Shown here: positions 20,891 through 21,917 of the stretch, piece after piece
Layout of the letters: the number at the start of each line of letters is the position of its first letter
Position numbering within the stretch: the stretch's first letter is position 1
IMG/VR virus record: IMGVR_UViG_3300009154_002012
Location: 1-44,461 of that record
Source of the DNA: a virus
Reading direction: 5' to 3' (one strand)
Length of the DNA: 44,461 bases
Notes under the pieces: model-generated
Told to the model about the DNA's origin: nothing
What the model saw: only the letters and a program-made list of their open reading frames with translations
The model's database searches: none
Made by a program: the position numbers and the translations under genes

Positions 20891-21295
20891 ATGGTTGATT
20901 TGGCCAAATTCATTGAAGTCACTCTCAATGAACAAGATAATTTTTTAAAGGTTCGTGAAACTCTAACACGAATTGGTGTTTCATCACGCAAAGAAAAAGT
21001 TTTATACCAGTCTTGTCACATTTTACATAAACAGGGTAAATATTATATTGTTCATTTCAAAGAATTGTTTGCACTAGATGGTAAACCATCCAACATTTCT
21101 GAGAACGATATTCAAAGACGTAATGCAATTGCAAACTTATTGGAAGAATGGGGTCTTGTTAAAATCTTAAATAAAGAACTTATGAAAGATAACATCGCAC
21201 CATTACACCAAGTAAAGATTATTTCATTTAGGGAAAAAGATGATTGGGAGTTGATTACCAAATATAACATTGGTAAAAAACCTCAAGATTACTAA
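20891..21295 (+). CDS. regA: Translational repressor RegA
   Basis: RegA binds the start regions of early mRNAs and stops their translation, including clamp-loader messages in T4. Similarity to T4 RegA is strong: FLKVRETLTRIG, KEKVLYQSCHILHKQGKYYIVHFKELF, and the ending VKIISFREKDDWELITKYNIG. Length is 134 residues (T4 122). It is the last gene of the 45-44-62-regA block; a structured RNA follows. AT-rich start regions elsewhere in this window are its expected targets. Confidence 0.95.
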   Translation: MVDLAKFIEVTLNEQDNFLKVRETLTRIGVSSRKEKVLYQSCHILHKQGKYYIVHFKELFALDGKPSNISENDIQRRNAIANLLEEWGLVKILNKELMKDNIAPLHQVKIISFREKDDWELITKYNIGKKPQDY

Positions 21296-21312
21296 ATAAA
21301 TAATAGAATACC

Positions 21313-21424
21313 TACCTTAGGTTCCGTTGGTCGCTACGGCATAAGGCGTCCGTGTAATTACACCCTCGACACGAAAGTTCGAGCCAGTATAAGGTAAGCT
21401 GGATTGTGACGCCTTCGGGGTCAC
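21313..21424 (+). ncRNA. GC-rich pseudoknotted RNA before hsp20, riboswitch-like
   Basis: This gene-free segment is about 54% G+C against about 36% around it. Stem P1 AAGGCGTC (21343-21350) pairs perfectly with GACGCCTT (21408-21415) and encloses three hairpins: GTGT/ACAC (21352-21363), CTCGA-c-AC/GT-TCGAG with a GAAA loop (21365-21383), and CCAG/CTGG (21384-21402). The loop of the last, TAAGGTA (21390-21396), can pair 7 of 7 with TACCTTA (21313-21319), a pseudoknot. An alternative hairpin GTGAC/GTCAC with a TTCG loop (21406-21424) shares bases with P1, so the two exclude each other. A cis-regulatory RNA such as the phage wcaG motif is possible; I cannot confirm the family. Confidence 0.75.
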
Positions 21425-21455
21425 ATTTCATCAACTCGCTTAATAGGAGAAAACT

Positions 21456-21917
21456 ATGACACGCTTTACAACATTATATCCACAATTTGTTGGCTTTGAT
21501 AACTTGTTCAATGAGCTCGAAAGACTTGTTGAAGGTACTGCGCCACAAAGAAACACATCTTTCCCACCTCACAACATCATCAAAGTAGATGACAACAAGT
21601 ATGTCGTTGAAATGGCTGTTGCAGGTTTTGGACAAGATGAGGTCGATGTTGAACTCCAAGACGGTACACTAATCGTTAGGGGTGAAAAGAAAGACCAGAA
21701 AGAAGTGGACTATTTGTATCGTGGCATTGCAACTCGTTCTTTCACCAAGTCGATTAGATTGAGTGAAACGATTGAGGTACGTGGTGCCCAATTCAAAGAT
21801 GGTATTCTTAAAATTGGTTTAGAGAATGTAATTCCTGACCATAAGAAACCAAGGAAAATTGAGTTTAGTACCGAACTAAATTTCAGTAATCCTAAACTGC
21901 TTCAAGAAGCAGCATAA
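21456..21917 (+). CDS. Small heat-shock protein, Hsp20 family
   Basis: This ATP-independent holdase chaperone has an alpha-crystallin domain at about residues 43-135. The signature NKYVVEMAVAGFGQDEVDVELQDGTLIVRGEKK and the final GILKIGLENVIPD (G-x-L-x-I-x-L) are diagnostic. The N-terminus FTTLYPQFVGFDNLFNELERL is the IbpA-like oligomerisation part. Length is 153 residues. AGGAG (21445-21449) is a good ribosome binding site, and the structured RNA upstream suggests regulated expression. Phage Hsp20 may help capsid assembly or protect during infection. Confidence 0.94.
   Translation: MTRFTTLYPQFVGFDNLFNELERLVEGTAPQRNTSFPPHNIIKVDDNKYVVEMAVAGFGQDEVDVELQDGTLIVRGEKKDQKEVDYLYRGIATRSFTKSIRLSETIEVRGAQFKDGILKIGLENVIPDHKKPRKIEFSTELNFSNPKLLQEAA

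Follow-up and report, generated by a model that had tools for sequence, protein, structure and literature searches.

The ROSE-like RNA thermometers are diagnosed by the sequence U(U/C)GCU, which faces the SD; a short form with two hairpins is known from Pseudomonas ibpA (PMC3669281). Among phage mRNAs, the lambda cIII thermometer has temperature-linked, mutually exclusive folds (PMC4166951). Phage HK022 carries put, an RNA of about 70 nt with two stem-loops just after the promoter, which suppresses both intrinsic and Rho-dependent termination without a protein (PMC9378689).

The window, that is, the whole stretch of 44,461 nucleotides that was analysed (IMG/VR record IMGVR_UViG_3300009154_002012), comes from a T4-like freshwater phage, and the RNA considered here sits between regA and hsp20. 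The frame of the locus is as follows.

20891..21295, plus strand: regA, the upstream gene (PF01818, E 3e-46); its stop codon overlaps the late promoter
21295..21302, plus strand: late promoter of the T4 type, AATAAATA, fitting NATAAATA, as read from the sequence
21406..21424, plus strand: hairpin I of the ROSE-like thermometer (GTGAC GCC TTCG GGG TCAC), with the pairing conserved in 89 leaders
21435..21449, plus strand: hairpin II, the anti-SD CTCGCT facing the SD AGGAG with one bulged G (ROSE motif)
21456..21917, plus strand: hsp20, small heat-shock protein (PF00011, E 6e-19)

The sequence NATAAATA is the late promoter of S-PM2 (PMC2984593). Nearly every relative has the same box immediately before either the module or the thermometer, and the inferred start of transcription is expected near 21308. 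The G+C-rich island of the original prediction is confirmed: 52.1% at 21308-21424 versus 36% for the window, with only two of 3412 stretches being as high.

According to the same prediction, the region contained one pseudoknotted RNA with a riboswitch-like competition of folds. A conserved pseudoknotted RNA does lie ahead of hsp20, but it is not a single element, as two separate RNAs had been merged. For comparison we took the 80 phage loci whose hsp20 proteins are nearest to that of the window. The stretch 21308-21403 is absent from 60; here a late promoter such as CTAAATA leads straight into a hairpin resembling GTGACGCCTTCGGGGTCAC, after which comes CTCGCT...AGGAG...ATG. The remaining 20 bear an insert, either window-like, denoted type A (L001, L002, L033), or type B (L040-L056). 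Since the TTCG hairpin is present in the module-free relatives, it has to be counted with the hsp20 leader; the RNA upstream of it is a separate, exchangeable module. The hsp20 leader is thus formed by the module at 21308-21403 and the ROSE-like thermometer at 21406-21463. At the level of sequence, the comparison shows that the late hsp20 mRNA leader is composite, a phage RNA module with a widespread core preceding a ROSE-like leader.

The pairing of hairpin I is retained in 99.4% of cases in 89 distinct leaders versus 68.5% with shuffled arms, with several pair types per position. The anti-SD in 90 distinct phage leaders is CTCGCT in 75 and CTTGCT in 15, the search itself having required CTYGCT. 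In the cultured marine phages HTVC008M, S-PM2, Melnitz-3 and C48C1 (L541-L544), which were not selected in this way, U(C/U)GCU and AGGAG are also found, at most about 45 nt from the hsp20 start. The thermometer is followed by hsp20, a small heat-shock gene, with a small ORF in between in some leaders. The Rfam model ROSE_3 scores 24.8 bits at 21403-21461 (251 nt searched, E 0.0028), under its cut-off of 43, and 22-30 bits exactly at the hsp20 start in four further phage loci. As the score is under the gathering cut-off, we call the leader ROSE-like and do not assign it to ROSE_3 as Rfam draws this family.

The phage leader shares with ROSE_3 (RF02523) and Pseudomonas ibpA the two hairpins, U(C/U)GCU set against the SD and the location directly before a small heat-shock gene, and its partial Rfam match ends at the ATG. 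It differs in scoring 22-30 versus 43 bits, in being phage-borne and driven by a late promoter, and in standing here behind an extra RNA module; its melting is predicted by likeness. The lambda cIII thermometer, in contrast, opens at low and not at high temperature and has an unrelated structure. ViennaRNA showed no heat-driven opening of the SD, its nearest-neighbour model being devoid of the non-canonical pairs that ROSE elements rely on. With good support, we infer that the ROSE-like part masks the hsp20 SD in the cold and opens on warming. No report of a phage ROSE-like thermometer was found in the open-access papers searched. These leaders suggest that a thermometer of the bacterial type lets T4-like phages of seas and lakes adjust the output of the chaperone they encode to temperature.

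Pattern scans of IMG/VR yielded 36 distinct type A sequences of the upstream module and many of type B. In the window, the module contains the following features.

21310..21322, plus strand: H1, a short hairpin with the loop (T)ACCTTA and compensated stem variation
21313..21319, plus strand: possible kissing partner of 21390-21396, originally noted as a 7/7 pairing
21324..21339, plus strand: H2, a CCGT/ACGG hairpin whose loop pairs with the linker (PK2)
21343..21350, plus strand: linker AAGGCGTC, first read as the 5' half of a closing stem and better explained by pairing with the H2 loop
21352..21363, plus strand: H3, GTGTAATTACAC, in type A only, with the 3' arm overlapping the core ACC
21360..21403, plus strand: core module, that is, ACC, hairpin a and hairpin b (covariance model R1)
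21362-21364, plus strand: core ACC, in a pseudoknot with 21393-21395
21365-21383, plus strand: hairpin a, with the RCGNNA loop ACGAAA at 21371-21376 and a bulge at 21378
21384-21402, plus strand: hairpin b, with the loop ATAAGGTAA at 21389-21397, a ANNNGGUAA loop

Types A and B have the core in common: ACC; hairpin a, consisting of 5 bp, a bulge, one more pair and the RCGNNA hexaloop; and, directly after it, the 5-bp hairpin b with the loop ANNNGGUAA, which allows for the ACC:GGU pairing. The GAAA tetraloop described initially is there in letters, but it is really part of this hexaloop, the closing pair of which covaries. Model R1 assigns 68 bits to the window core (E 1.8e-17, the window sequence being included in the model). 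In alignment A2 of 29 distinct sequences, 98.8% of the cells are paired and both partners vary in nine of the 14 pairs; covariation scores 0.537, and never more than 0.144 after sliding. Stem b tells us less, as it was fixed by the search scan. A relaxed scan with both stems free separated its matches sharply: stems of 5+5 or 5+4 bp at about 41 places, a figure that counts some loci twice, and poor stems at all others. The ACC:GGU-type pseudoknot can be formed in all 46 distinct cores, most though not all of which come from scans requiring ACC; in the podovirus MW202615 it is GCA:UGU, with C-G replaced by A-U. We consider the core structure and its spread nearly certain.

The original prediction offered the wcaG class, a phage 5' leader, or else a new RNA. 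A covariance-model scan of the window leader against all 4227 Rfam families gave no wcaG match even at E<=10, and in types A and B, the L290 class and L429 the module matched no Rfam family. The second alternative fits these results. GOLLD and ROOL are, like the module, structured RNAs of phage intergenic regions, often near tRNAs. However, the GOLLD model (RF02032) gave nothing over the cut-off in 17 records, with the control genomes silent too, and that of ROOL (RF03087) had no match in 11 records, where the positive control was also silent. Hence the module is not wcaG or GOLLD and, less firmly, not ROOL. A tRNA-like reading was discarded, since ARAGORN found no tRNA in the window. The phage of L208 has a second core (L429 1501-1543, or 83167-83209) between a DUF2828/DUF7788 gene and tRNA-Leu; as this copy follows a VWA-type gene, a Y RNA bound by Ro60 was considered and rejected, the adjoining gene being DUF7788/DUF2828, with TROVE absent everywhere and DUF7788 present in one of 13 records. 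The module is a real phage RNA family and, as far as the tools used show, an undescribed one. Its core represents a strongly covarying family outside the Rfam models scanned, found in unrelated phages and in several gene contexts.

The contexts were drawn from pattern-sampled collections, and their counts are raw and biased by the search patterns. In T4-like phages the module comes after a late promoter of the NATAAATA type, at a distance of a few bases up to some tens; TATAAATA/CTAAATA boxes stand directly 5' of it, and hsp20, alone or behind a small ORF, follows. In L466 it starts about 60 nt after a TTGACA-N17-TATAAC promoter. Five loci have the module directly 5' of a tRNA, namely tRNA-Thr (L225, L466), tRNA-Leu (L429), tRNA-Pro (L460) and tRNA-Trp (L464), and six directly 5' of an intrinsic terminator (L437, L443, L449, L459, L470, L509). 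In L449 and its relatives the leader is followed by a terminator, holin S and terminase; this leader-terminator-lysis order is similar to that of lambda pR'-tR'. In MW202615 and L467 the module is ahead of capsid genes. No terminator is evident beside the module copies of L230 and the L290 class. In the L290 phage, R1 finds three copies in one intergenic region of about 600 nt, of which two do not depend on the search pattern.

Some of these regions are long. Intergenic regions with up to three cores in L290 (3340-3970), L440, L451, L484 and L511 are probably larger structured RNAs, and in a Pseudomonas-type prophage (L449 1110-1570) a G+C-rich intergenic leader of about 400 nt extends between a phrog_3373 gene and the terminator before holin S.

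A search of 299 Pseudomonadota genomes with R1 gave no match, which makes the module phage-linked. A bacterial origin was rejected on the same grounds (R1 matched none of the 299), the GTDB scan for CCGTGTAATTACACC yielding only unrelated matches. BLAST of type A against sequenced phages had no match, and that of type B retrieved MW202615 and a chance Vibrio match only.

The closest functional parallel is HK022 put. Like put, the module is short (about 70-100 nt), has two stem-loops and occupies the beginning of phage transcripts in the vicinity of terminators. Unlike put, it has a different stem anatomy and the ACC:GGU pseudoknot; the two are likened by description and not by sequence. The put-type position, at the transcript front and ahead of terminators, is seen in many, but not all, module copies. 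The module would fold while leaving RNA polymerase and act in cis on the nascent transcript; once folded, it would render the polymerase resistant to pausing and termination at the next structured RNA, be it the ROSE hairpin, a terminator or a tRNA. Phages would then place it, as a small exchangeable part, at the fronts of transcripts. The covariation of the core, the transcript-front position and the neighbouring structured RNAs and terminators count for this mechanism. On the other hand, the terminator-like ROSE hairpin is retained in most T4-like relatives although these have no module, and so passing the hairpin does not require the module there. By analogy, we tentatively suggest that the module acts on phage transcripts as HK022 put RNA does, by antitermination. 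For the locus as a whole, the best explanation is a composite leader of a ROSE-like thermometer and a put-like module, to which we give somewhat less than even confidence. It is possible, but doubtful, that the 44-nt core defines a new class of phage nascent RNA, a portable cis-acting part of unrelated phages that would act on polymerase free of protein, be placed before late, lysis, capsid, chaperone and tRNA transcripts, and be fused to a ROSE-like thermometer in freshwater T4-like phages. If such a part is shared before tRNAs, terminators and late genes, it would point to a common unnamed step in phage gene expression. The module may represent a novel sort of RNA element with which phages control their own transcripts.

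Alternatively, the module could shield phage mRNAs at the 5' end from end-dependent decay, the ROSE-like part alone being regulatory. It begins a few nucleotides from the expected start of transcription, is densely structured, and has been gained or lost between close relatives with the promoter and the thermometer unchanged, all of which would suit such a shield. However, the module-free relatives already start with a stable hairpin, the strict conservation of the RCGNNA and GGUAA loops goes beyond the needs of bulk stability, and the copies just 5' of tRNAs or terminators would be left unexplained. We regard protection as unlikely.

Equally improbable, in our estimate, is a protein-binding or trans-acting noncoding RNA with the core as its 3' domain, captured into the hsp20 leader in T4-like phages and having its 3' end made by terminators or by RNase P at the next tRNA. 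In its favour, the core closes longer intergenic regions at their 3' end, with a terminator or tRNA next to it, and has several copies in the ~600-nt region of L290. This is difficult to reconcile with the T4-like phages, in many lineages of which the core is joined to hsp20 leaders without a terminator of its own, and with the lack of a constant partner gene (TROVE is absent, and DUF7788 is limited to one of 13 records).

A riboswitch with hsp20 as its output would involve pairings in type A, where the order of elements is H1, H2, the AAGGCGTCC linker, GTGTAATTACACC, hairpin a and hairpin b. The H1 stem has compensated variants (ACCT/AGGT, ATCC/GGAT, GCCC/GGGC, TCCC/GGGA), and its loop is nearly invariant. 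In PK2, the H2 loop GTCGC (21330-21334) faces GCGTC (21346-21350) with four of five pairs in the window; most relatives have GATGC:GCGTC with all five, and L205 and L208 have GATGT:ATATC, changed on both sides. H3 is invariant except for one loop base that varies within type A, and is missing from type B and from type C, to which loci such as L449 and L466 belong. The sequence CTACCTTAGG...CCGT...ACGG presumably resembles the antisense of a 23S rRNA helix. In the long type A leaders L203, L233, L234 and L285 an extra 5' domain precedes H1, with CGGGATGGGA and, in addition, an apparent H-type pseudoknot with compensating stems; this domain is missing in the window.

The pairings proposed originally are all present in the letters: the 8-bp stem of AAGGCGTC (21343-21350) with GACGCCTT (21408-21415), the three hairpins inside it, the 7/7 complementarity of TACCTTA (21313-21319) and TAAGGTA (21390-21396), and the TTCG hairpin at 21406-21424, which overlaps the 3' half of the closing stem. 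As a conserved helix, however, the closing stem fails. Comparison of relatives at 21343-21350/21408-21415 revealed no compensatory change, the helix is broken in L205/L287, L208 and L279, and its 5' strand covaries instead with the loop of hairpin 21324-21339. As covariation is missing from this stem, and the hairpin after it is part of the ROSE-like thermometer, which 60 of 80 relatives have without any module, competition of aptamer and expression folds through this stem is unsupported.

Exclusive folds may nevertheless exist elsewhere, inside the module. The GGU in the loop of hairpin b has two alternative partners, ACC at 21362-21364 and ACCUUA at 21314-21319, and the H3 hairpin (GTGT/ACAC, 21352-21363) is incompatible with the pairing of GGU with ACC 21362-21364. 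As exclusive pairings are built into type A, a switch is possible, but at another site than the one first proposed. ACCTTA:TAAGGT is invariant in type A, so that covariation neither supports nor opposes the loop-loop pairing, and the hairpin b loops of type B do not keep it. A switch through either the closing stem or the clash of ACC and ACCUUA for GGU is in our opinion quite improbable: mutually exclusive pairings do occur in type A, but the second pairing is missing in types B and C, the module-free relatives keep the whole downstream element, and the downstream genes share no pathway, tRNAs, terminators and capsid or lysis genes being unusual company for a metabolite switch.

Taken singly, the window sequence has a folding z-score of -0.38, not beyond chance, and an 8-bp Watson-Crick helix also arises in 18 of 300 dinucleotide shuffles; as the pairings of a single sequence are unremarkable, the relatives are decisive. 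Chance folding of an A+T-poor stretch with no function, compatible with this z-score, is contradicted by the covarying stems, the 46 distinct cores and the recurrent contexts, and carries practically no weight.

Several genes adjacent to the module deserve mention. In L151, L226, L265 and others, the ORF between the leader and hsp20 has about 70-79 aa (MFYANMAIDSIQDAK...) and looks phasin-like by eye, with no match in Pfam and PHROG searches. In L215, L217, L230, L259 and L270, a gene for a phage PqqA precursor peptide (MIWTTPTATDMRFGFEVTMYVMNR, PF08042, E 2e-9) lies shortly before the module, which hints that the host uses PQQ and is perhaps a methylotroph. In MW202615 (L410 1730-2666), a short ORF with a capsid-like start (MALTNFAALTADQK) is followed by a PacI-like endonuclease gene, possibly an intron or a split capsid gene.
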